DNA of 64,000 bases from Cryomorphaceae bacterium (GTDB lineage Bacteria > Bacteroidota > Bacteroidia > Flavobacteriales > ECT2AJA-044), in the NCBI GenBank assembly GCA_017798125.1, contig CP059070.1, positions 2,232,001 through 2,296,000 of the forward strand, read 5' to 3'. Below are positions 12,533 to 57,450 of this stretch, one piece after another (position 1 is the first letter of the stretch; the number at the start of each line of letters is the position of its first letter). The notes beneath the pieces are model-generated. The model ran no database searches, was not told the DNA's origin, and worked only from the letters and a program-made list of their open reading frames with translations. Made by a program: the position numbers and the translations under genes.

Positions 12533-13555
12533 ATGTCAGAAAAGCCCATCACGCTGTTAGCTATTGAATCGAGTTGCGACGATACTTCCGCCGCCGTTAT
12601 GATCAATCGCAAAGTCCATTCCAACGTGGTGGCCGACCAGAGCATTCACGAGAAATACGGTGGAGTGGTCCCGGAATTAGCTTCCAGAGCACACCAAGCC
12701 AACATTGTTCCGGTCGTGGACGCTGCCTTACGCAAAGCAAATATCGGAATTAACGACGTGGATGCCATTGCCTATACCCAAGGCCCTGGTTTAATGGGTT
12801 CTTTATTGGTCGGTAGCTCTTTTGCTAAGAGCTTGGCCCTCGCGGGCCGATGCCCCCTGATTCCCGTCCACCACATGCAGGCGCACATTATGGCGCACTT
12901 CATCGATGATCCTGAAATGACAACGCCGGAGGATCCCTTTTTATGCTTGACCGTTTCCGGTGGGCACACACAAATTGTCCGCGTCAATGGGCCGCTAGAG
13001 TTTGAACTTCTCGGCGAGACCATTGACGATGCGGCTGGTGAAGCCTTTGACAAAGCAGCTAAAATCTTAGAGCTTCCCTACCCAGGCGGCCCCCTCATAG
13101 ATCGTTATGCTGCAGAAGGAAATGCCGACTTCCTGACTTTTGCCGAGCCCAAGATTGAGGCCCTCAACTTCAGTTTCAGTGGACTTAAGACCAGTATTCT
13201 ATACACCCTTCGAGATGCAGAGAAAAAAGAGCCAGGATTTCGTCAAAAGCACATGAAGGATATCTGTGCGAGCATTCAGAAGAGCATCGTGGACATTCTA
13301 ATGGAAAAGGTTCGAAAGGCGGTTGCGCAAACGGGAATAAATCAAGTCGCTATTGCTGGAGGAGTTTCAGCTAATTCGGGGCTCCGCAAGGCCTTAAACC
13401 GTGCTGCAGAAGAAGAAAACTGGAAGGTATTCATTCCCTCATTTCAATACTGCACTGACAATGCGGGCATGATTGCCATTGTTGGACATTACGCCTTTGA
13501 AAAGGGGGCTTTTGGTTCCCTGAACGAGCGCTCGCAAGCGCGAATGTCGCTTTAA
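12533..13555 (+). CDS. tsaD: tRNA N6-adenosine threonylcarbamoyltransferase TsaD
   Basis: Transfers threonylcarbamoyl to A37 of ANN-decoding tRNAs together with TsaB and TsaE. The 340-residue ASKHA-fold protein shows IESSCDDTSAAV at the N-terminus, the metal-binding H-x3-H of VHHMQAH, the phosphate loop SGGHTQI, and SGLKTSILY, GGVSANSGLR and CTDNAGMIA. I chose the ATG at 12533 (MSEKPITLLAIE) over the in-frame ATG at 12515, because 12515 lies upstream of a consensus -7 box. The 3' end overlaps the convergent histidine kinase gene by 4 nt. A hairpin-GATG element lies inside it at 12835-12852. Confidence 0.97.
   Translation: MSEKPITLLAIESSCDDTSAAVMINRKVHSNVVADQSIHEKYGGVVPELASRAHQANIVPVVDAALRKANIGINDVDAIAYTQGPGLMGSLLVGSSFAKSLALAGRCPLIPVHHMQAHIMAHFIDDPEMTTPEDPFLCLTVSGGHTQIVRVNGPLEFELLGETIDDAAGEAFDKAAKILELPYPGGPLIDRYAAEGNADFLTFAEPKIEALNFSFSGLKTSILYTLRDAEKKEPGFRQKHMKDICASIQKSIVDILMEKVRKAVAQTGINQVAIAGGVSANSGLRKALNRAAEEENWKVFIPSFQYCTDNAGMIAIVGHYAFEKGAFGSLNERSQARMSL
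12835..12852 (+). repeat. Hairpin-GATG element, copy E
   Basis: GGCCC-TCGC-GGGCC-GATG, 4-nt loop, inside tsaD, sense strand; encodes the LAGRC stretch. Confidence 0.8.
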
Positions 13556-14904
13556 AACTCCAAACGGAAAGTAGTTCCTTCCCCAGGAGCACTTTTTACT
13601 TGGATACTCCCGTTGTGCTGGCGCATGATTTGTCGGCTTAGACTCAAGCCAATTCCACTTCCCTGTTCCTTCGTGGTATAAAATGGAATGAACACGCGCT
13701 CTAAGGTTTCGGCATCCATTCCTGGACCGTTGTCCCCAATATATAAGCACAAGCGTCCAAATTCGCGCTGAAACAAGATGCTTATGGCCGGTTCTTCTGT
13801 GTCCTTAAGTGCTTCTTTCGCGTTCTTAAGCAGGTTGATCAATACCTGATCCATAAGGTTCGGATCCAAATTTTCTCGAAGATCATCGGTATTGGAATCA
13901 ACTTGAACGCGAATCTGTTGTGCATCCAAATCACCGCGAAGAAGGTTCAAAACGCGTTGAACAAGCGCAAACAGGTCTGTAGACTCGAGAACTGGATCCG
14001 GCACTTTCGATAGGCTCCTATAGGTGTTGACAAATTTCAGCAATCCTTTTCCCCGGCTCTCAATGGTGCGAATACTCTGATTCACATCATCCGCGTCATC
14101 TGCGGGCAGGTGAAGCCCTTCGCTTTCTTCGTTGCGATGGTCCTCTAATATTTGTTCGACTACACCAGAGAGGGACACAATGGGAGTCACCGAATTCATG
14201 ATTTCATGCGTCAAGATGCGGATTAGCTTTTGCCAGCTCTCAATTTCCTTTTGATCCAGCTCGTTCTGAATATCGCTTAGGGTGATGAGCTTGTAGTTGT
14301 CCCCCATGGTCACAAACTCCGTTGCACTGACGGCAATGTGTACCATACGTCCGTCGATCACCGGTCGTATCAATCGTCGCTCACCGTTTTTGAGATCTAG
14401 AATGGTCGAGTATAGAGATTCGTCTATATCCTTTATACCAACCAAGCTCCGCATGTAGGGTTTCTTAAGTAGATTCTTGGCAGCCGAATTGTACCAGCGC
14501 AGGTGTCCGTGTTCATCGCTTGCCACAACAGCCAAGTCCACGTGTTCCAACAAGGTCTGAAGGAACTGGTCTTTCTGTTCCCGTTCGGCCTTTACCTTTT
14601 GAAATTCCTTGATAATAGAATTATATGCCCGTTTTAATTCACCGTCTGAACGACCCGCAACTTCCGTTGAAAACGTGGCAGAAAAATCATTGTAGCGGAT
14701 GCTGAGTAAGAAGCTTGCTAGCTCTTTGCGACTTCTGTTGATGTATTGGTAGAGGTTGTAGGTAGTGTAGAGCAAGGTGAGTATGGCCACTACGGTTATG
14801 ACCACCCAATCTGTTCTCGTCAGCGCATAGTTGATGAGCCAGCACAACATGAAGATGGCCGATACCCGAAGGAAAAGCTGAACTCTAGTGCGCTTAAATA
14901 CCAT
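13552..14904 (-). CDS. NtrY-like membrane sensor histidine kinase
   Basis: Membrane sensor kinase, 450 residues, partner of the sigma54 activator encoded immediately upstream. Two membrane helices fill residues ~10-55, then a PAS-like region (~125-210, ASDEHGHLRWYNSAAKNLL), the H-box (LTHEIMNSVTPIVSLSG), the N-box (VLINLLKNAKEAL) and ATP lid motifs (DNGPGMD, GSGIGLSLSRQI). The start codon overlaps the regulator's 3' end by 11 nt, so the two genes form one transcript. The signal is unknown; the neighbouring divergent efflux operon suggests envelope stress or a toxic compound (inference). Confidence 0.93.
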   Translation of the reverse strand: MVFKRTRVQLFLRVSAIFMLCWLINYALTRTDWVVITVVAILTLLYTTYNLYQYINRSRKELASFLLSIRYNDFSATFSTEVAGRSDGELKRAYNSIIKEFQKVKAEREQKDQFLQTLLEHVDLAVVASDEHGHLRWYNSAAKNLLKKPYMRSLVGIKDIDESLYSTILDLKNGERRLIRPVIDGRMVHIAVSATEFVTMGDNYKLITLSDIQNELDQKEIESWQKLIRILTHEIMNSVTPIVSLSGVVEQILEDHRNEESEGLHLPADDADDVNQSIRTIESRGKGLLKFVNTYRSLSKVPDPVLESTDLFALVQRVLNLLRGDLDAQQIRVQVDSNTDDLRENLDPNLMDQVLINLLKNAKEALKDTEEPAISILFQREFGRLCLYIGDNGPGMDAETLERVFIPFYTTKEQGSGIGLSLSRQIMRQHNGSIQVKSAPGEGTTFRLEF

Positions 14905-16264
14905 ATTTGGCCATTTTGCGGTACAGTGTTGTTCGACCTAGGCCGAGCTCTTTGGCCACAGCACTCATATTGGAATCGTGTTTCTTTATGGCACTGATGA
15001 TGGCCTTTTTCTCCACATCTTCTAGATTGAGTGACTCATTCTCTACGACCTTGACTTCACGCCCTTGAAGAGCGAAATCATCGGCCGTGAGTTCGTTTCC
15101 ATCACTCATAATTACAGCCCGCTCCAGTACATGCTGAAGTTCTCTGATGTTCCCAGGCCACGAATAGCGGGTCAGCTTTCGAAGGCCGTCTTTGCTCAAT
15201 TCAATTTTGTCCTTCTGATACTTCTTAGCATACATCTTTAGGAAGTGGTCACAGAGGACGGGAATATCGTCTTGGCGATCCCTTAACGGCGGCAGCGTAA
15301 TCTCCACCGTGTTGATCCGATAGAGCAAGTCTTGACGGAACTCTGAGGTTTCCACCATATCGTACAAGGGCATATTGGTGGCCGCAATTAAGCGGATGTC
15401 CACTTTGCGAGGTTTGCTCTCTCCCACCCGATTAATGGTCCTGCTCTGCAAGGCGGTCAGAAGTTTAGCTTGCATGGGCATGCTCAGGTTTCCAATCTCG
15501 TCCAAAAAGAGGGTTCCTTGATTGGCCAATTCGAAACGTCCAGCGCGAGCTTCTTTGGCGTCGGTAAAGGCCCCTTTGGCGTGTCCAAACAATTCAGACT
15601 CAAAAAGCGATTCCGTTATGGCTCCTAGATCCACGTTCACAAAAATCTGGTCAGTTCTCAGCGAACTACGGTGCAAGGCGCGTGCCACGACTTCCTTACC
15701 TGTTCCATTTTCGCCGAGAATCAGAACATTCACGTCCGTCTTCGCCACCTTTCGAATGGTCGAAAAAACGTCCTTCATGGCCTCCGACTCACCAATCATA
15801 TCACTAAAGGGTTGATCGAGATCCTTGGTGAGCTCTTTCGTCTTTCTTTTTAGGGTCTTGATCTCTTTTTCACTCTTCCCTAATTTAATGGCTGAAGCCA
15901 CTGTTGCGCGAAGGCGTTCATTGTCCCAAGGCTTCACGACAAAGTCTGAGGCTCCTTCCTTCATGGCCCTGACGGCCAGATCGATATCCCCGTAGGCCGT
16001 CATTAAAATCACCTGGGTTTCCGGAGATAGTTCTTTGATTCTAGAGAGCCAATGAAAGCCCTCTTTACCCCCTATTGCACCGACCGTGAAATTCATGTCG
16101 AGCAGTATCGCATCATACTTTTCGTGGGAGAGGTAATCTTCAATATTGGATGGGTCGTTACTGGTTCTCAGGATGTCGACATTCCGCTTCAAGACCATCT
16201 TTGCTGAGAGCAAGACATCTTGATCATCATCTATGATGAGGAGTTTACTTTGTTCTTGGGCCAT
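14894..16264 (-). CDS. NtrC-family sigma54-dependent response regulator
   Basis: Activates sigma54 RNA polymerase at enhancer-type promoters. Domain order is receiver (~1-125, LLIIDDDQD and the phospho-acceptor in ILLDMNF), AAA+ ATPase (Walker A GENGTGKE, the sigma54 contact loop, Walker B TLFLDEIG, the arginine region ATNMPLYDM) and a Fis-type helix-turn-helix (MSAVAKELGLGRTTLYRKM). The sigma54 contact loop reads GAFTDA instead of the classical GAFTGA. I take the ATG at 16264 (MAQEQSKLLIIDDD) as start; an upstream in-frame ATG at 16315 would add 17 residues not seen in the family. It is divergent from an operon with a perfect sigma54 promoter, its likely target. Confidence 0.94.
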   Translation of the reverse strand: MAQEQSKLLIIDDDQDVLLSAKMVLKRNVDILRTSNDPSNIEDYLSHEKYDAILLDMNFTVGAIGGKEGFHWLSRIKELSPETQVILMTAYGDIDLAVRAMKEGASDFVVKPWDNERLRATVASAIKLGKSEKEIKTLKRKTKELTKDLDQPFSDMIGESEAMKDVFSTIRKVAKTDVNVLILGENGTGKEVVARALHRSSLRTDQIFVNVDLGAITESLFESELFGHAKGAFTDAKEARAGRFELANQGTLFLDEIGNLSMPMQAKLLTALQSRTINRVGESKPRKVDIRLIAATNMPLYDMVETSEFRQDLLYRINTVEITLPPLRDRQDDIPVLCDHFLKMYAKKYQKDKIELSKDGLRKLTRYSWPGNIRELQHVLERAVIMSDGNELTADDFALQGREVKVVENESLNLEDVEKKAIISAIKKHDSNMSAVAKELGLGRTTLYRKMAKYGI

Positions 16265-16310
16265 TTGGTCAATCGTTCTGTGTCGGAAGGTAGAAAGTGT
16301 TTCACTGTGG

Positions 16311-16337
16311 AACAAATTTTTGTTTCAGAACGAAACA
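16311..16337. promoter_or_regulatory. Candidate enhancer (activator) site
   Basis: Two adjacent inverted repeats: AACAAA-N2-TTTGTT (16311-16324) and TGTTTC-N5-GAAACA (16321-16337). Their centre lies about 100 nt upstream of the predicted start of the sigma54 promoter, the normal place for an NtrC-type dimer to bind. It could also be an autoregulatory site for the divergent regulator gene. Confidence 0.4.
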
Positions 16338-16343
16338 GGGATA

Positions 16344-16360
16344 CATCGTGCCGTAGGCAC
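16344..16360 (-). repeat. Hairpin-GATG element, copy F
   Basis: GTGCC-TAC-GGCAC-GATG on the minus strand, between genes, in the control region of the sigma54 activator and the efflux operon, 43 nt upstream of the -24 element. Confidence 0.8.
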
Positions 16361-16402: not shown

Positions 16403-16417
16403 TGGCACGTTGATTGC
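16403..16417 (+). promoter_or_regulatory. Consensus sigma54 promoter of the efflux operon
   Basis: TGGCACG-N4-TTGC matches the -24/-12 consensus at every conserved position, giving a predicted start near 16429. It lies in the 317-nt gap between the divergent sigma54 activator and the ABC operon. The gap also holds the candidate enhancer repeats, one hairpin-GATG element (16344-16360), a stem-loop (16448-16478), a 49-codon open frame and an intrinsic terminator (16526-16558). Confidence 0.85.
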
Positions 16418-16435: not shown

Positions 16436-16585
16436 ATGCAGAAACACTTGACACTTTACTTAACACTTGAAGTGTCGAAACATGACATACTCCAAAGCGC
16501 TTGTTACAGAAACACGCTTAACACGAGGTTCTTCCTGCATAGCGGGAAGAGCCTTTTTATGCATTGTCCTAACTTGAGCCCATGA
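16436..16585 (+). CDS. Possible 49-residue leader peptide
   Basis: An ATG 7 nt after the predicted sigma54 transcription start opens a 49-codon frame whose stop overlaps the start of the ABC ATPase gene as ATGA (16582-16585). The product (MQKHLTLYLTLEVSKHDI and onward) has no recognisable domain. Its frame runs through the terminator hairpin at 16526-16554, so translation could influence termination. No Shine-Dalgarno sequence is evident. It may be a chance open frame; I report it because the start and stop positions fit the regulatory layout so well. Confidence 0.25.
   Translation: MQKHLTLYLTLEVSKHDILQSACYRNTLNTRFFLHSGKSLFMHCPNLSP
16448..16478 (+). other. Stem-loop in the sigma54 leader
   Basis: GACACTT (16450-16456) pairs with AAGTGTC (16470-16476), extendable to 9 pairs with one G-U, loop 13 nt. 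The right arm is itself part of the palindrome ACACTTGAAGTGT (16463-16475), so it could equally be a DNA-level operator. Confidence 0.4.
16526..16558 (+). terminator. Intrinsic terminator inside the leader of the ABC operon
   Basis: AGGTTCTTCC (16526-16535) pairs with GGAAGAGCCT (16545-16554) over ten pairs with one G-U wobble, a 9-nt loop, and a TTTTT run at the 3' side. It lies 24 nt before the ABC ATPase start and about 100-130 nt after the sigma54 start, so it either ends a ~130-nt small RNA or works as an attenuator. Confidence 0.7.
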
Positions 16586-17265
16586 AGCATCCGATCATTG
16601 AGATGAAAGGCCTGTCAAAAGTATTCCGCATGTTCGATGTGGAGACTACAGCTGTCGATCATCTGGATTTGGAAATTGAATCTGGTGACTTTCTCGCCAT
16701 CATGGGTCCCTCAGGTTGTGGAAAATCTTCTCTACTCAATATGTTGGGACTTATTGACCGTCCGAGTGCAGGTAAACTGTACATCGACGGGCAAGACGTC
16801 TCAGCTTTGGACGACAAGACGGCGGCCAATTGGCGGAAACACCGTATTGGCTTTGTTTTCCAAAGCTTCAATTTGATCGATGAACTCAATGTCTATGAGA
16901 ACATCGAACTTCCTTTGATCTATACGAAGCGAAGCAGCCAGGAGAAACAAGAACTGGTTGAAGAGCTTCTGGAAACGATGCGGCTACTACACAGAAAGCA
17001 TCACTTTCCGTATCAACTATCGGGCGGGCAAAAGCAACGTGTTGCTATGGCCCGCGCGATGGTTAACCAACCGAATATCTTGTTGGCCGATGAGCCTACG
17101 GGAAATTTAGATTCACAGGCCGGAGAAGAGATCTTAGAATTGCTGACCGAACTCAACAGCCACGGTACAACCGTAATTCTGGTAACCCATTCTGATCGCG
17201 ATGCATCCTATGCCAAGCGTATTATTCGAATGCGCGATGGCGCCATAGCACAAGAGGTTTGGTGA
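16582..17265 (+). CDS. ABC transporter ATPase, LolD/MacB type
   Basis: Cytoplasmic ATPase powering FtsX-like permeases. The 227-residue protein has Walker A GPSGCGKSS, the Q-loop FVFQSFNLI, the signature LSGGQKQRVAMARA, Walker B ILLADEPTGNLD and the H-loop VTHSD. It is the first gene of a five-gene operon with two ATPases, three permeases and a membrane fusion protein. The long permease starts 1 nt after its stop. Expression is probably controlled by the sigma54 promoter at 16403 and the leader terminator. Confidence 0.93.
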   Translation: MKHPIIEMKGLSKVFRMFDVETTAVDHLDLEIESGDFLAIMGPSGCGKSSLLNMLGLIDRPSAGKLYIDGQDVSALDDKTAANWRKHRIGFVFQSFNLIDELNVYENIELPLIYTKRSSQEKQELVEELLETMRLLHRKHHFPYQLSGGQKQRVAMARAMVNQPNILLADEPTGNLDSQAGEEILELLTELNSHGTTVILVTHSDRDASYAKRIIRMRDGAIAQEVW

Positions 17266-17266
17266 G

Positions 17267-19675
17267 ATGACCATGTTGGAGAACTACATAAAGGTCGCTT
17301 GGCGAAATCTCAAGAAACACCGGGTTTACTCCCTGATCAACATCAGTGGTTTGGCTCTGGGCATGGCTTGCGGGTTGTTCATTATCCTCTACATCTTTGA
17401 AGAAACCAGCTACGATAAGTTCTGGGATGATTCAGATCGTATTTACCGCGTCTACATTGATGGGAATTTTCTGGGGCAGGAAATCAACTCCCCAACGACT
17501 CCTTCGGGTATGGCTCATTCCTTGAGAACCGAGTTTAGTCAAGTAGAATCTGCTACGCGCTTTCGTCCTATTCGTCAGGAAATCATGTTCCAACACCGGG
17601 ATATGAAGATTTATATCGCGGATGTCGCCTATGCCGATTCCAACTTCTTTGATGTCTTTTCGATTCCGCTATTAATGGGCGATCCGAAGGAGGTGCTGGC
17701 GAGCACTGGATCATGTGTAATCTCTCAGCGCATCGCTCAAGCCTTTTTTGGGGAAGAGAACCCCATTGGTAAGATCCTGAACTACGACAATCGTTGGAAT
17801 TATAGGGTAACGGGAGTCATGGCTCCCCTACCCGGAAAATCGCATTTCTCATACGACGTATATATGACGTCCAATGAGATTCGCGGAAACTGGATTGAGA
17901 ACGGGCACTGCACCTATTTCAAAACTAAAGAGGGCGCAAATCCGGATGAAGTCATTGCTCAAATAAATGACTACGCCTACGCGCAATTGAGTACTATTCT
18001 TGAAGAGCAACTCGGATTGACTCCTGAAGAGTTTTTAGAGCAAGGAAATTCCTATGAGTATGGTTATCAAAATGTTGAGCGCATTCACCTACACTCAAAT
18101 CTACAAGCAGAACTCAAGCCAAACAGCAAAGTTGAATACCTCTACATCTTGGGAGTCATTGGGATTCTAGTCCTTATGGTCGCTGGAATTAACTTCACCA
18201 ATTTGGTGACCGCACGAAGTGCGAGCCGATCCAAAGAAGTAGGTGTTCGAAAGGTCGTCGGTGCATATCAACCTTTGATCGTGCGGCAATTCTTAACAGA
18301 AGCCATTATTCAAAGTGTCATTGCCCTAGTCATTGCCATGATGCTTCTAGAGCTAGCGCTACCCTCTCTGAGCCGGGTAATGGGTATATCGGGGATGCGT
18401 CTTTTTGGTGGTGGATACGGATGGGTTGCTGTGATCTTTGTGTTTTTGGCTTTGATCGTTGGTATCTTCTCTGGAAGTTATCCCGCACTTTACTTGAGTT
18501 CCTTTGATCCCTCTCAAATCATAAAGGGGCAATTCAAAAGCGGAAAAAAGGGCCTTCTCACGCGAAGAATTCTGGTGATTATTCAATTCAGCATCAGTTT
18601 GAGCTTGATTATTGGGCTGTCCGTCATGCTCAAACAGTTGAAGTTCATGCAGCAAAAAGACCTTGGCTTTCAGCCGGAGCAGGTTATTGTGGTTCCCATT
18701 CAAACAGACTTCGTTACCGAAAACTTCCATGAAATCAAGGATGGCATGCTGGCGACGGTTCCCGGCATTGAGAGCATTTCCAGAGGATCACATATTCCAG
18801 GCGTCATGGAAATGGTCCAGGGCATTTTCCGGGTTGGAACCTCTGACCTCACCTACCCCATGTGGTTTATGGGAGTCGACGACGATTTCTTGAATACCAT
18901 GGAAATTGATTTACTCGAAGGAGTTGAACCGAGCTTTGACGTAGCCAAAACCGGAGGTGTGGTCATCAATAAAAAAGCTGTTGAGTTTTTGGGCTTAAAA
19001 AACCCAATTGGTACATCTATTGGATATTCGAATGACTTCGTTGAGCAAAGCATGCAAGTAGTCGGAGTCATTGAAAACTTCCACACAGAAAGCTTCGATC
19101 AGGAAATCAAACCGATGATTCTGTACTACGATCCAGAAACGTGGTTCAGCGTCATCAGAATTGATCCCGGACAATGGGAAGAAACCATTTCAGGTATTGA
19201 AGACTACTGGGAAAAGGTTGAGCCATCTCATCCCTTCCGGTATACCCTTCTTCAGGACGATTTTGCTCGACTTTATGAGGAGGAAAAGAACCTTAGCCAG
19301 CTTTTTCTGGTTTTCACCATTTTGAGCATTTGGATTGCCTGTATGGGATTGTTTGGATTGGCTCTGTATAATTCGGAATTGAGAACTAAGGAGATCGGGA
19401 TTCGGAGAGCACTCGGTGCAACCACTGGCCAGACATGGCTACTACTCACCAAGGAATTCGGATACCTCACGGGAATTTCCATCCTCATCTCCTGGCCCAT
19501 TAGCTACTTTGCAATGAATTTTTGGTTAGAGTCGTTTGTCTATCATATCGAAGTGCCCCTCCAGGTGTTCTTATCATCATCCATGATCGCCTTGTGCATT
19601 GCTTTGGTTACAGTCAGCGTACAAACCATACGAACCAGCATGGCAGACCCCATACAAGCTCTGCGATACGAATAA
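17267..19675 (+). CDS. Large FtsX/MacB-type ABC permease with two FtsX domains
   Basis: An 802-residue permease with a first membrane helix near residue 20-45 (SLINISGLALGMACGLFIILY), a MacB-like periplasmic domain, an FtsX three-helix block at ~285-440, a second periplasmic domain and a second FtsX block at ~680-795 (ELRTKEIGIRRALGATTGQ). This duplicated architecture is common in Bacteroidota export systems and probably works as a mechanotransmitter rather than a classical importer. An alternative start is ATG 17273 (MLENYIKVAWRNLKK), the more usual N-terminus of the family. It is followed by the second ATPase gene after 29 nt. Confidence 0.9.
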   Translation: MTMLENYIKVAWRNLKKHRVYSLINISGLALGMACGLFIILYIFEETSYDKFWDDSDRIYRVYIDGNFLGQEINSPTTPSGMAHSLRTEFSQVESATRFRPIRQEIMFQHRDMKIYIADVAYADSNFFDVFSIPLLMGDPKEVLASTGSCVISQRIAQAFFGEENPIGKILNYDNRWNYRVTGVMAPLPGKSHFSYDVYMTSNEIRGNWIENGHCTYFKTKEGANPDEVIAQINDYAYAQLSTILEEQLGLTPEEFLEQGNSYEYGYQNVERIHLHSNLQAELKPNSKVEYLYILGVIGILVLMVAGINFTNLVTARSASRSKEVGVRKVVGAYQPLIVRQFLTEAIIQSVIALVIAMMLLELALPSLSRVMGISGMRLFGGGYGWVAVIFVFLALIVGIFSGSYPALYLSSFDPSQIIKGQFKSGKKGLLTRRILVIIQFSISLSLIIGLSVMLKQLKFMQQKDLGFQPEQVIVVPIQTDFVTENFHEIKDGMLATVPGIESISRGSHIPGVMEMVQGIFRVGTSDLTYPMWFMGVDDDFLNTMEIDLLEGVEPSFDVAKTGGVVINKKAVEFLGLKNPIGTSIGYSNDFVEQSMQVVGVIENFHTESFDQEIKPMILYYDPETWFSVIRIDPGQWEETISGIEDYWEKVEPSHPFRYTLLQDDFARLYEEEKNLSQLFLVFTILSIWIACMGLFGLALYNSELRTKEIGIRRALGATTGQTWLLLTKEFGYLTGISILISWPISYFAMNFWLESFVYHIEVPLQVFLSSSMIALCIALVTVSVQTIRTSMADPIQALRYE

Positions 19676-19704
19676 ACCAAACTGATTCAAACGCCGTATA
19701 CGGA

Positions 19705-20379
19705 ATGAAAGAAATGATTCGCATTCGCGACCTAAATAAGTCCTACCAAATGGGACACAGTGCCCTTCATGTATTAAAAGGTATTGACCTCAATATTCAT
19801 GAAGGAGAATTCGTATCCATTATGGGATCTTCGGGATCGGGAAAATCTACCCTCTTGAACATCTTAGGCCTCTTGGATGAGCACGATAACGGGAGTTACC
19901 ATCTGAACGAGGTCTTGATGAAGGATCTATCAGAAAAGAAAGCCGCCTACTATCGGAATCAGTTTATCGGGTTTGTCTTTCAGTCTTTCAACCTCATTTC
20001 CTTCAAGAATGCGATGGAGAATGTTGCTCTTCCTCTCTACTATCAGAAGGTTCCGCGAAAGAAGCGCAATGAACTAGCCCTGGAATATTTGGATAAAGTA
20101 GGCCTGGCTGAATGGGCGGAGCATATGCCCAACGAACTTTCCGGGGGACAAAAACAGCGTGTAGCCATTGCACGGGCCTTGATTTCAAAGCCTAAGATCA
20201 TCTTGGCAGATGAGCCCACGGGTGCGCTAGACTCCGTTACTTCACATGAAGTCATGGAGCTCTTTAAGGAAATCAATGGCGAGGGAATCACGGTCATTAT
20301 TGTCACACACGAGAATGATATCTCGGCCATGACTCAGCGAATCATTCGCTTGAAGGATGGCGTAATTGAAGCCGCCTGA
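19705..20379 (+). CDS. Second ABC ATPase of the efflux operon
   Basis: A LolD/MacB-type ATPase of 224 residues with Walker A GSSGSGKST, Q-loop FVFQSFNLI, signature LSGGQKQRVAIARA, Walker B IILADEPTGALD and H-loop VTHEN. The open frame continues upstream to 19522 inside the preceding permease gene, but the family N-terminus (MIRIRDLNKSYQMG) fixes the start at ATG 19705 or 19714. It likely serves the two smaller permeases that follow directly. Confidence 0.92.
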   Translation: MKEMIRIRDLNKSYQMGHSALHVLKGIDLNIHEGEFVSIMGSSGSGKSTLLNILGLLDEHDNGSYHLNEVLMKDLSEKKAAYYRNQFIGFVFQSFNLISFKNAMENVALPLYYQKVPRKKRNELALEYLDKVGLAEWAEHMPNELSGGQKQRVAIARALISKPKIILADEPTGALDSVTSHEVMELFKEINGEGITVIIVTHENDISAMTQRIIRLKDGVIEAA

Positions 20380-20380
20380 G

Positions 20381-21616
20381 ATGTTTGACGTAGACAAGTG
20401 GCAAGAAATATTCACGACCATTCAGCAGAATAAGCTGAGAACTTTCCTCACGGGATTTAGTGTGGGTTGGGGAATCTTCATGCTCATCATCTTGCTCGGA
20501 GCGGGGCAAGGAATTTTCAATGGTGTGGAGTCCATGTTCAACGACGACGCCATTAACAGTATCTGGATTCGCCCGGGTCAAACGACCATGGAATACAAGG
20601 GTTTCAAATCCGGTCGCCGCGTAAAGATGTACAACGAGGACTACGATTACCTGCTATCTACATACAAGGGCATCGATGAAGCCACGGCTCGAGACTGGGT
20701 TTGGGGCGTCAATGTCAGCTATCGCAACGAGTACGGATCATACGGAGTCAGAGGTTGTCACCCAGGTCACAAGTACCTAGAGAAGACTGAAATGATCTCT
20801 GGCCGATACCTGAACGAAAAAGATATTCAAGAGGCACGTAAGGTTGCCGTTATTGGGAAACTCGTAGAACAAGACCTGTTTAAAAGAGAAAGCGCCATTG
20901 GGGCCTATATCAATATTTCGGGAATTCCATTTAAAGTCATTGGGGTATCTGATGACGTTGGTAGCCAATGGGAGCAACGCTCAATCTACATCCCGGTGAG
21001 TACTTCTCAAGGCGTCTTTGACGGAGGCAGTAATGAATTCGACATGATGATGGTGTCCACTGGTGATTTGACGCTTATGGAGACCATTGACCTGGCAGAA
21101 AACATTGAGCGCGATATGAAAGAGCGCTTAGTCGTGGATCCCCGTGATCAGCGCGGTCTGAATATCCGCAATAACAATGCGGAGTTTGCCAACATCGTGA
21201 ACGTCATCAACGGTATGCGCATCTTCATCTGGGTAATCGGTATCTTCACCATCATCGCAGGTGTGGTTGGTGTCAGTAACATTATGATGATCATCGTTAA
21301 AGAGCGCACCAAAGAAATTGGGGTCCGAAAAGCACTAGGGGCCACCCCCTTCTCTATTGTATCCTTAATCCTTCAGGAATCTATTTTCATCACTACACTA
21401 AGTGGTTATATCGGACTGATGCTCGGTATTGGCCTTTTAGAACTGGTCAACAGTTTCATGCCCGAAGGCACACCTTTCTTCCGGAACCCTGAAGTGGATG
21501 TACAAGTCGCCGTTTACGCAACGCTCCTTTTGATTTTGGCCGGAACCTTGGCGGGATTCTTCCCAGCGAGAAAGGCAGCCGCCATTAAACCAATTGTAGC
21601 TTTAAGAGACGAATAA
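20381..21616 (+). CDS. MacB-type ABC permease (first of two paralogues)
   Basis: A 411-residue permease: N-terminal amphipathic stretch and helix (NKLRTFLTGFSVGWGIFMLII), a periplasmic MacB_PCD domain (~50-270), and three C-terminal helices with the FtsX signature (VKERTKEIGVRKALGATPFS). The start is ATG 20381 (MFDVDKWQEIF), 1 nt after the upstream stop; the TTG at 20366 would lie within the ATPase gene. It is similar in layout to the next gene, suggesting a tandem duplication and a heterodimeric permease. Confidence 0.92.
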   Translation: MFDVDKWQEIFTTIQQNKLRTFLTGFSVGWGIFMLIILLGAGQGIFNGVESMFNDDAINSIWIRPGQTTMEYKGFKSGRRVKMYNEDYDYLLSTYKGIDEATARDWVWGVNVSYRNEYGSYGVRGCHPGHKYLEKTEMISGRYLNEKDIQEARKVAVIGKLVEQDLFKRESAIGAYINISGIPFKVIGVSDDVGSQWEQRSIYIPVSTSQGVFDGGSNEFDMMMVSTGDLTLMETIDLAENIERDMKERLVVDPRDQRGLNIRNNNAEFANIVNVINGMRIFIWVIGIFTIIAGVVGVSNIMMIIVKERTKEIGVRKALGATPFSIVSLILQESIFITTLSGYIGLMLGIGLLELVNSFMPEGTPFFRNPEVDVQVAVYATLLLILAGTLAGFFPARKAAAIKPIVALRDE

Positions 21617-21617
21617 G

Positions 21618-22880
21618 ATGTTTGATAGAGATCGCTGGCAAGAAATATGGGAAGTCCTCTCCAAGAACAAGCTCCGTTCGTTTCTAACGGCCTTCGGAGT
21701 CTTTTGGGGCATCTTTATGATGATTATCATGCTGGCCAGCGGGCGTGGATTGCAAAACGGTGTGAGTCAAGACTTTGGTGAAATGGCCACGAACAGTATG
21801 TTCATCTGGACCCAAGGCACAAGTATTCCATACAAAGGCCTTCCTCGAGGAAGGTGGTTTAGCCTACGGCTCGATGACGTTGACGCCATTTACAACAACA
21901 TTCCCGAAGCAAAGCTCGTCTGCCCCCGTAATCAACTAGGCGGTTGGCAGGGAGCCAACAATGTGGTTCGCGGGCTTCAAACCGGTGCTTTTAGTGTCTA
22001 CGGAGATGTGCCGGGATATGCCGACGTCGAAAAGAGGAACATGGCTGTCGGTCGCTTCATCAATGAGTCCGATATCCAAGAAAGACGCAAAGTCTGTGTC
22101 ATTGGAGAAGCTGTTTATGACGCGCTCTACTTGCCAGGTGAGGAAGTCATAGGATCATACGTACGTATCAACGGAGTGTACTTTCAAGTAATAGGTCTCT
22201 TCAAGTCTGTCAAGGCAGGTGAAGACGCTCTGGAAGAGACACAGATGATCCACATCCCCTTCACCACCTTTGCTCAAGCCTTTAATCGCGGTGATCAAGT
22301 CGGATGGATGGCCTTGATGTCCGAGGATAAAGTGCCTGTTTCCGTCATGCAGGAAAAGGTGCTCGCGCTTTTGAAAGAACGACACACCGTGCACCCTGAA
22401 GATCAGCGTGCGTTCGGCTCCAACAACTTAGAAGAAGAGTTTCAGCGCATGACCAACCTTTTTACGGGAATCAAGGCGCTTTCCTTCTTTGTCGGTATTC
22501 TTACTCTTATTGCCGGGGTCATTGGTGTCAGTAACATCATGCTCGTCATCGTCAAAGAGCGGACAAAGGAAATTGGCGTTCGAAGAGCACTTGGGGCAAC
22601 ACCGTGGAAAATCATGGGGCAAATCATACAGGAGTCTGTTGTTTTAACTACTCTTGCCGGCGTTACTGGATTGGTCATAGGCGTGTGGCTCATGGAGGGC
22701 GTGAATCAGGCTCTTACCCAATTTGGAATGGACACCGGATCCTTTAGAAACCCGGAAGTAAAATTTGGAATCGTCTTTGTGTCATTAATCATCCTCATTG
22801 TCTCGGGAGCTCTGGCGGGTCTCATTCCCGCTCGACGAGCAGTGAAGATTAGACCAGTAGACGCTTTAAGATCAGAATAA
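21618..22880 (+). CDS. MacB-type ABC permease (second paralogue)
   Basis: A 420-residue paralogue of the preceding permease, starting one nucleotide after it. It has the same layout: N-terminal helix (RSFLTAFGVFWGIFMMII), MacB_PCD domain, and a C-terminal FtsX block with VKERTKEIGVRRALGATPWK and IPARRAVKIRPVDALRSE. The shared motifs support a heterodimer driven by the ATPase at 19705. A degenerate copy of the hairpin-GATG element is at 21860-21876. Confidence 0.92.
   Translation: MFDRDRWQEIWEVLSKNKLRSFLTAFGVFWGIFMMIIMLASGRGLQNGVSQDFGEMATNSMFIWTQGTSIPYKGLPRGRWFSLRLDDVDAIYNNIPEAKLVCPRNQLGGWQGANNVVRGLQTGAFSVYGDVPGYADVEKRNMAVGRFINESDIQERRKVCVIGEAVYDALYLPGEEVIGSYVRINGVYFQVIGLFKSVKAGEDALEETQMIHIPFTTFAQAFNRGDQVGWMALMSEDKVPVSVMQEKVLALLKERHTVHPEDQRAFGSNNLEEEFQRMTNLFTGIKALSFFVGILTLIAGVIGVSNIMLVIVKERTKEIGVRRALGATPWKIMGQIIQESVVLTTLAGVTGLVIGVWLMEGVNQALTQFGMDTGSFRNPEVKFGIVFVSLIILIVSGALAGLIPARRAVKIRPVDALRSE
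21860..21876 (+). repeat. Hairpin-GATG element, degenerate copy
   Basis: TAGCC-TAC-GGCTC-GATG: four pairs plus an outer T-C mismatch, inside the second MacB-type permease gene, sense strand. Confidence 0.5.
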
Positions 22881-22900
22881 TTGAAACCCTGTAACCTGTT

Positions 22901-23995
22901 ATGAAAAAAGTACTTCGCATCCTCCTTATCCTCATTGCTGTTGGATTGGTCGGCTACACCTTCTATTTTCTTTATCAGAAGTCTGTAGAGCCCGAAATGA
23001 CCTACAATACTGCAGCTCCTGAGCAAGGTACCGTCATTAAGAAAACGGTAGCTACGGGTTCCATTATCCCCAGAAAGGAAATCGAGATTAAGCCCCAAGT
23101 ATCCGGAATTATTGACGTTCTATACGTTGAAGCTGGTGATGAAGTCCAAAAGGGTGATTTGATTGCCCGTATCAAGGTGATCCCGGACATGGCCCAGCTC
23201 AACTCCGCGGAGAACAGAGTCAATAGAGCTCAAATTTCCCTGGATGCCGCCAAGTTGGATTACGATCGGAACAAAGAGCTTCACGAAAAGGGCATCATTG
23301 CCGATGCTACTTGGCAGGGTTTTGAAATTGCCTATCGGAATGCTCAAGAGGAATTGGCCGCTGCCGAAGCTAATTTAGAGATCATCAAAGAAGGTGCTGC
23401 AAAAAAAGCGGGTTCAACGGCCAATACGCTTGTCCGTAGTACTTCGAGCGGAACAATTTTAGACGTACCGGTAGAAGAAGGAAACTCTGTCATTGAAGCC
23501 AATACCTTCAATGACGGAACTACGATTGCCACGGTTGCAGACTTAGGCGAGATGATCTTTGAAGGAAAAGTTGACGAATCTGAAGTCGGTAAGATTCAAA
23601 CCGGTATGGAGCTCATCCTCAATATTGGTGCGCTACAAGACCAGCAATTCAAGGCAGAGCTCGAGTATATTTCGCCTAAAGGGGTGGAAGAAAACGGAGC
23701 AATTCAATTTGAAATCAAAGCCGACATGCAACTCCAAGAAGGCATGTATATCCGTGCAGGGTACAGCGCCAATGCGGATATCGTTCTCGCACGAGCTGAT
23801 TCAGTCTTGACCATCAAAGAATCCCTACTCCAATTTGAAGAAGGCAAAGCGTACGTTGAAGTAAAGGTCGGTGAAGATCAATACGAGCGTCGTGAAATCG
23901 AAACAGGTCTTTCGGACGGAATCATTGTCGAGATCAAGAGTGGTCTCGAAGAAGGAGATGAAATCAAAGTCTGGAATAGTCCTATTCGCTCTTAA
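22901..23995 (+). CDS. HlyD/RND-type periplasmic adaptor (membrane fusion protein)
   Basis: A 364-residue adaptor with an N-terminal membrane anchor (LRILLILIAVGLVGYTFYFL), the first lipoyl half (IKPQVSGIIDVLYVEAGDE), a coiled-coil hairpin (~95-165), the second lipoyl half (STSSGTILDVPVEEGNSV) and a beta-barrel. It would connect the inner-membrane permeases to an outer-membrane channel. No TolC-like gene is present in the window, so the channel must be encoded elsewhere. Its stop codon abuts the convergent tetR stop without a gap. Confidence 0.92.
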   Translation: MKKVLRILLILIAVGLVGYTFYFLYQKSVEPEMTYNTAAPEQGTVIKKTVATGSIIPRKEIEIKPQVSGIIDVLYVEAGDEVQKGDLIARIKVIPDMAQLNSAENRVNRAQISLDAAKLDYDRNKELHEKGIIADATWQGFEIAYRNAQEELAAAEANLEIIKEGAAKKAGSTANTLVRSTSSGTILDVPVEEGNSVIEANTFNDGTTIATVADLGEMIFEGKVDESEVGKIQTGMELILNIGALQDQQFKAELEYISPKGVEENGAIQFEIKADMQLQEGMYIRAGYSANADIVLARADSVLTIKESLLQFEEGKAYVEVKVGEDQYERREIETGLSDGIIVEIKSGLEEGDEIKVWNSPIRS

Positions 23996-51641: not shown

Positions 51642-51847
51642 AAAGATTACTCCTTTTATTGATACTGAGTGCCTACGGCACGATGGCTCAAAACCCCAAT
51701 AACGTCGAGATGGCAGATACCTTCAGACAGGAAGGTAAAATATACGTAGTTGTAGGCGTCATCGTAATCATTTTCATTGGACTGTTTGTTTATTTGATCA
51801 GTGTTGACCGCAAAGTCAGCAGACTTGAAAAGAAGATGGAAAAATGA
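51638..51847 (+). CDS. Small CcmD-like membrane protein
   Basis: A 69-residue protein with a signal-like first segment (KRLLLLLILSAYGTMAQ) and one membrane helix (YVVVGVIVIIFIGLFVYL) followed by a basic coiled stretch (DRKVSRLEKKMEK). Size and position between ccmC and ccmE match CcmD, although sequence similarity is weak, as usual for this family. It overlaps neighbours on both sides (ATGA). A perfect hairpin-GATG element (51669-51685) encodes the AYGTM segment. Confidence 0.75.
   Translation: MKRLLLLLILSAYGTMAQNPNNVEMADTFRQEGKIYVVVGVIVIIFIGLFVYLISVDRKVSRLEKKMEK
51669..51685 (+). repeat. Hairpin-GATG element, copy K
   Basis: GTGCC-TAC-GGCAC-GATG in the ccmD-like gene, sense, same stem as copies F and L. 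Confidence 0.8.
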
Positions 51848-56875: not shown

Positions 56876-57450
56876 TACGGGAGGAATATCCACACCCCAT
56901 AGTACTGGGTTCCGGATCGCCCCGCAGGAAGTCATTGCTTGCGGAACTAGGCTATACGTTTACCATTCGGACCAGTGATGTGGACGAAACACCGCCACCC
57001 CATTTGGATGGTCGTGGAATTGCCGAGTACCTGGCCAAGCACAAGGCGGATCACATTCAAACCTCCCCGGAAGAGGTCCTCATAACATCAGATACGGTGG
57101 TCTGGCAGAACGGAGAGAGTCTGGCTAAACCCGCTGACAAAGAGGAAGCTACAGAGATGCTGATCAAACTAAGCGGAAACACGCATGAGGTGATCACAGG
57201 GGTGTGCCTACGGCACGATGGACACCATCACGTCTTTTCAGACGTAACGACGGTTACGTTCAAAAAACTAGACGTGAATGACATCGAATACTACATCGAC
57301 ACCTTTAAGCCTTACGACAAAGCAGGCGCCTATGGAATCCAAGAATGGATTGGGATGATCGGCATAGAAAGCATCGAAGGATCGTACTTCAATGTTGTGG
57401 GTCTACCGGTCCAACGACTCGATGAAGCTCTGCGCTCCTTAGTCCACTAA
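56872..57450 (+). CDS. maf: Maf-family nucleotide pyrophosphatase
   Basis: A 192-residue house-cleaning pyrophosphatase acting on non-canonical or modified nucleotides. Motifs are VLGSGSPRRKSLLAELG, ITSDTVVW, and the C-terminal KPYDKAGAYGIQEWIG, the signature of dTTP/UTP-type Maf. I start at ATG 56872, overlapping the upstream stop; the longer frame from 56845 lies in the UbiA gene. The 3' end overlaps the convergent PLP enzyme gene by 12 nt. A hairpin-GATG element is at 57204-57220. Confidence 0.95.
   Translation: MIREEYPHPIVLGSGSPRRKSLLAELGYTFTIRTSDVDETPPPHLDGRGIAEYLAKHKADHIQTSPEEVLITSDTVVWQNGESLAKPADKEEATEMLIKLSGNTHEVITGVCLRHDGHHHVFSDVTTVTFKKLDVNDIEYYIDTFKPYDKAGAYGIQEWIGMIGIESIEGSYFNVVGLPVQRLDEALRSLVH
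57204..57220 (+). repeat. Hairpin-GATG element, copy L
   Basis: GTGCC-TAC-GGCAC-GATG in maf, sense, in a different codon phase from copy K (C-L-R-H-D rather than A-Y-G-T-M). Confidence 0.8.

Follow-up and report, generated by a model that had tools for sequence, protein, structure and literature searches.

We propose, with a probability of about 0.85, that positions 16403-16417 of the window (the whole 64,000-nucleotide stretch of DNA analysed here) are the promoter of a sigma54-dependent transcription unit that is controlled through two enhancers by a divergently encoded kinase/NtrC pair and that would extend into an ABC operon. The sequence-based evidence for this reading comprises the putative promoter and enhancers, their conservation, the covariation of the enhancers with the recognition helix of the activator, the presence of rpoN and distant copies of the same arrangement. 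In the mechanism that we infer, the phosphorylated activator would bind two palindromes of the form TGTTYC-N5-GRAACA upstream of the -24 element, assemble on them and remodel sigma54-RNA polymerase, and transcription would then pass through a leader of ~155 nt, which contains a terminator-like hairpin, into a six-gene MacB/FtsX-type ABC operon. The features of the locus are as follows:

13552-14904 (-): sensor kinase with two membrane helices and without an outside sensor domain (Pfam, hydrophobicity)
14894-16264 (-): NtrC-type activator with receiver, sigma54-activating AAA+ (GAFTDA) and Fis-type DNA-binding domains (Pfam, motif)
16298-16314 (+): putative distal enhancer palindrome TGTTTC-ACTGT-GGAACA, TGTTTCACTGTGGAACA (congener footprint, fixed offsets, genome count)
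16321-16337 (+): putative proximal enhancer palindrome TGTTTC-AGAAC-GAAACA, TGTTTCAGAACGAAACA (congener footprint, fixed offsets, genome count)
16403-16417 (+): putative sigma54 -24/-12 element TGGCACG-TTGA-TTGC (sequence, congener footprint, 53/71 gaps vs 0 on the other strand)
16436-16460 (+): leader stretch GCAGAAACACTTGACACTTTAC, common to the congener and, in part, to the distant target genes
16526-16558 (+): terminator-like hairpin and T run in the leader, kept in the congener (folding, congener comparison)
16582-17265 (+): ABC ATPase 1 (Pfam / NCBIfam)
17267-19675 (+): 802-aa permease with duplicated MacB/FtsX domains (Pfam / NCBIfam)
19702-20379 (+): ABC ATPase 2 (Pfam / NCBIfam)
20381-21616 (+): MacB/FtsX-type permease (Pfam / NCBIfam)
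21618-22880 (+): MacB/FtsX-type permease (Pfam / NCBIfam)
22901-23995 (+): MacA/HlyD-type periplasmic adaptor (Pfam / NCBIfam)

The element lies in a gap of 317 bp between the start codons of the NtrC-type gene (ATG at 16264, -) and of ABC ATPase 1 (ATG at 16582, +) and is, as the initial annotation had stated, a full match to TGGCACG-N4-TTGC on the strand of the ABC operon, with GG at -24, G(C) at -12 and ten bases between them. A bare match of this kind is weak evidence for a promoter. The exact consensus occurs three times in the 2.84-Mb genome, compared with two occurrences of its mirrored control, and the looser pattern TGGCAY-N5-TTGC occurs 14 times against 12; genome-wide counting of the consensus was dropped as uninformative because it yielded the same level as the mirrored control. 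The second exact copy falls in the window, within the NtrC-type gene (15673-15687, -), and the third (locus L120 8130-8144, +; G000:C1:293130) is located just 5' of a gene encoding a ~240-aa exported protein, with no enhancer pair seen at that match. The promoter matrix was weighted according to what is generally known of the consensus, and the later counts rely on plain patterns. Since the consensus match alone is not meaningful, the case for the promoter rests on its setting. The position, strand, conservation and paired upstream palindromes of the element are far beyond chance, and the element is very probably real and functional.

A search for the same operon at the order level returned close matches in this genus only, so that conservation was judged from the wider NtrC family, using 80 activator relatives (nearly all Bacteroidota by record title) together with the window, its congener and a paralog pair; two genomes in this analysis carry the ABC operon itself. 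The congener encodes an activator 91% identical to that of the window and the same operon, and its upstream gap has diverged save for a few blocks. These comprise both palindromes, the TGGCAC and TTG motifs, a short inverted repeat and the initial portion of the leader. Among the 71 usable divergent gaps beside NtrC relatives, TGGYAY-N5-YTG is directed toward the divergent operon in 53, and occurs neither on the other strand nor in mirrored form (0/71 in each case). Within 450 bp beside the activator, the element is present at 43 of 53 ABC/FtsX-linked loci vs 1 of 16 unlinked loci (Fisher p = 8e-8), leaving ten ABC-linked loci without it in that interval by the pattern used. In loci L031, L035, L040 and L044, activator relatives are divergent to ORFs of ~900-1000 aa in place of ABC genes, and the -24/-12 element is absent.

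Conservation of the GG and GC dinucleotides in relatives had been put forward as a check on the promoter. The GG at -24 and the TTG are conserved; the GC at -12 is not, the base after TTG in the 53 element-bearing gaps being G (38), A (7), C (5) or T (3), with TTGA in the congener and TTGG in most relatives. Because this base varies among relatives and is A in the congener, the proposed check fails where GC is concerned, and is overly strict as grounds for refuting a promoter in the Bacteroidota phylum. By the same token, promoter scans that require TTGC miss most such promoters, because the -12 element is loose. The gaps of loci L016-L095 contain loose or shifted -12 elements in Bacteroidota, mostly with G after TTG.

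The two 17-bp palindromes in the window precede the -24 element by 105 and 82 bp and are 23 bp apart. Only 0.02 sites of the form TGTTYC-N5-GRAACA are expected in the window, where the pair is found; the genome contains five such sites (mirrored control 0), of which two are the window pair and two precede distant -24/-12 elements. Matches at G000:C1:835626 and, in the congener, at C62 both appear to fall inside coding sequence and were taken as chance. Across the relatives, two palindromes occur at fixed offsets upstream of -24 in most loci, in two classes. The first, to which the window belongs, has 17-bp sites near -103/-81 (~7x the shuffled expectation by occurrences), and the second has 16-bp sites mostly near -88/-68 (~13x by the same measure). 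The recognition helix of the activator follows this division, containing GRTT or GRAT with YRK in 13/13 loci of the 17-bp class and TR[STA][SA]LYRR in 37/37 loci of the 16-bp class. Such covariation of helix and enhancer is what direct binding predicts, with phylogeny as a confounder. A separate 13-bp palindrome, GTGCCKNMGGCAC, occurs three times in the window (16348-16360, 51669-51681 and 57204-57216; 0.03 expected), and in the congener copy near the promoter both arms are changed while pairing is retained.

The gene rpoN, whose presence the initial annotation had proposed to check, is present as one gene in the genome (E 9e-54), which also encodes six clear sigma54 activators. The activator of the window reaches no NCBIfam equivalog cut-off. 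Its loop reads GAFTDA, not GAFTGA, and all 80 relatives carry GAFTDA, GSFTDA or GAYTDA; the GAFTDA variant is listed as tolerated in Desulfovibrio (PMC4641369). The original proposal that sigma54 controls the operon strand through the adjacent NtrC/kinase pair is thus supported by rpoN, by the conserved -24, TTG and paired enhancers, and by the same layout at a paralog. That paralogous activator, encoded in this genome, is accompanied by an adaptor-ABC-FtsX operon of its own, and TGGCATGCGTATTGC stands ~23 bp before the operon. A third activator and its kinase (locus L115 9268-11932) are found at the end of a similar ABC/FtsX operon headed by TGGCACAGCCTTGGC (L115 3426-3440, +), and a related palindrome accompanies TGGCACAGCCTTGGC at the start of that operon.

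The operon downstream of the element is densely packed (16582-23995, +) and contains the parts of a MacAB-type system, with MacB_PCD and FtsX domains, separate ATPases and an adaptor; no TolC outer-membrane partner is encoded among its six genes. The assignment to MacB/FtsX-type ABC families is upheld by these domains, and it is the protein family that suggests efflux as a putative function of the operon. The earlier claim that the promoter drives the operon holds as regards a promoter on the operon strand, and needs revision in that the ABC genes do not follow the promoter directly. The whole leader folds with z = -5.5, and its strong hairpin ends 24 bases before the ABC1 start; an outer helix predicted for the folded leader is not preserved in the congener and was dropped. 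In the congener the order is promoter, small secreted-protein ORF (locus L112 12032-12362, +, with one frameshift in the assembly), hairpin and ABC1. This ORF has no Pfam match and no copy was found in the window genome, and it appears to have been lost from the window species. Because a conserved hairpin stands between the promoter and ABC1, read-through past it is a real question, and the hairpin could stop most transcripts.

The same enhancer pattern leads to a cluster ~955 kb away, with the following features:

L131 7095-7415 and 7773-8093 (-): tandem genes sp1 and sp2 for secreted 107-aa proteins, each with an enhancer pair and a -24/-12 element
L131 8308-8437 (-), equivalent to G000:C1:1294308-1294437, with congener counterparts in L167/L140: candidate sigma54-dependent non-coding RNA of ~130 nt

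Two further exact enhancer sites each lie here 71 bp before TGGCACGCCGGTTGA and a secreted-protein gene (sp1, sp2). The two proteins are 91% identical to each other and belong to no family, and their congener ortholog (65% identical) also has a -24/-12 element and recognisable enhancers. A scan allowing one mismatch revealed a third enhancer pair at the cluster, 104 and 82 bp before TGGCACGGCAATTGG, which is the geometry of the window; beyond the sites reported here, the only other one-mismatch site with a -24/-12 element at a plausible distance belongs to the operon of the third activator. When the six predicted target promoters are aligned, TGGCAC and TTG are invariant and the enhancer half-sites largely so. 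Very probably, then, the same activator also controls this unlinked cluster of two secreted-protein genes and a ~130-nt RNA. The candidate RNA folds with z = -4.2, ends in a terminator-like hairpin and has no Rfam match and no notable reading frame. From the -12 element to just beyond the RNA hairpin, the two species share an uninterrupted run of ~145 identical bases, and most 50-base windows in the flanks are 42-84% identical. With these ~145 bases unchanged and the neighbouring genes clearly diverged, the predicted RNA ranks as a strong candidate for a previously undescribed regulatory RNA; its predicted pairing with the leaders of the ABC operon, sp1 or the activator gene is no better than that of shuffled sequences.

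The leader raises an alternative reading of the promoter, in which its main product would be a short leader transcript left over from a unit that lost its small secreted-protein gene in this species, the ABC operon being transcribed mostly from another promoter or only through leakage. The strong hairpin and T run so close to ABC1, kept in a congener with a small ORF between promoter and hairpin, are what such a reading would predict, as is the promoter-to-gene distance of 163 bp, compared with ~30 bp for the majority of relatives. In most relatives, nevertheless, this promoter directly precedes the ABC/FtsX genes, the ABC operon is otherwise intact, and with fewer than 30 bases separating the hairpin from the ATG there is little space for another promoter, so that we regard this alternative as unlikely.

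The replacement of GAFTGA by GAFTDA opens a different route, whereby the activator would serve sigma70-type promoters or repress transcription, like some GAFTGA-defective relatives, and the -24/-12 element would be a bystander; in VfmH, whether the GAFTDA change matters has been left open (PMC10714721). The critical positions of the GAFTGA loop are, however, the phenylalanine and the threonine (PMC3162934), both of which are intact in GAFTDA, and most loci of the GAFTDA/GSFTDA family carry a -24/-12 element at a set distance, making this route highly improbable. That the match is due to chance and has no function finds a basis in the genome-wide counts, where the bare pattern is about as frequent as its mirrored control, but is hard to reconcile with an element that is conserved, biased to one strand, regularly spaced from paired enhancers and linked to ABC genes, and we give it next to no credence.

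The kinase has few residues between its two membrane helices, plus a cytosolic region, and hydrophobicity analysis indicates two membrane helices with almost no outside loop in 67/70 kinases, including that of the window. Because the kinase lacks an outside sensor domain, nothing indicates that it senses the exported compound directly, and it more likely responds to a signal arising in the membrane or passed on by the transporter than binds a periplasmic compound itself; the suggestion that the pair senses the exported compound or the damage it causes is left unsupported. For a kinase without an outside loop, the Bce systems of Firmicutes, in which the transporter is needed for sensing, are the nearest analogy (PMC7828314). 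BceRS-BceAB similarly combines a kinase lacking an outside sensor domain with an adjoining FtsX-superfamily ABC transporter controlled by its regulator, whereas the window encodes an NtrC-type regulator predicted to act with sigma54, not one of BceR type, and a Gram-negative MacB-like transporter with an adaptor. Activators of the NtrC/ZraR/AtoC type share with the window the receiver, AAA+ and Fis-type domains, tandem palindromic enhancers ~80-105 bp upstream and a divergent target operon; the window differs in its GAFTDA loop, its kinase without an outside domain and its MacB/FtsX ABC operon target.

A 2025 survey reported, as what it called first evidence, that predicted sigma54 promoters are enriched at MacB/FtsX permeases (COG0577) in Bacteroidia (PMC12316311). 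Like our analysis, it puts predicted sigma54 promoters before Bacteroidota genes for MacB/FtsX-type ABC permeases, by means of promoter matrices; it deals with class-wide enrichment and, in the parts of the survey drawn on here, names no activator, enhancers or regulon for the permeases. In Flavobacterium psychrophilum, sigma54 promoters mapped by transcript ends precede envelope-stress genes, genes for exported proteins of unknown function and the putative regulatory RNA Rfp36 (PMC9723704). The resemblance lies in Bacteroidota sigma54 promoters before exported-protein genes and an RNA; the portion of that study used here includes no ABC operon among the promoters selected and does not assign activators to promoters. 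Judged among the open-licence literature, and with sigma54 control of Bacteroidia MacB/FtsX predicted in 2025, the activator, enhancers and regulon described here appear to be new.

More speculatively, and with considerable reservation, the locus may exemplify a phylum-wide Bacteroidota envelope-defence module, in which the kinase would read the state of a MacB/FtsX transporter in a Bce-like manner and signal through a GAFTDA NtrC and sigma54, with the regulon in the genus of the window tying the transporter to small secreted proteins and to a small RNA that hardly varies. To our knowledge, few sigma54 activator-target pairs are known in Bacteroidota. The enhancer code, with two classes that vary with the recognition helix, enables regulon predictions in many genomes and allows real sites to be told from consensus noise.

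A final observation concerns sigma54 itself: TGGTACGACTTTTGAT is located 26 bp before rpoN (L119 6758-6773, +), pointing to possible self-control, which has reportedly been described for Dokdonia.
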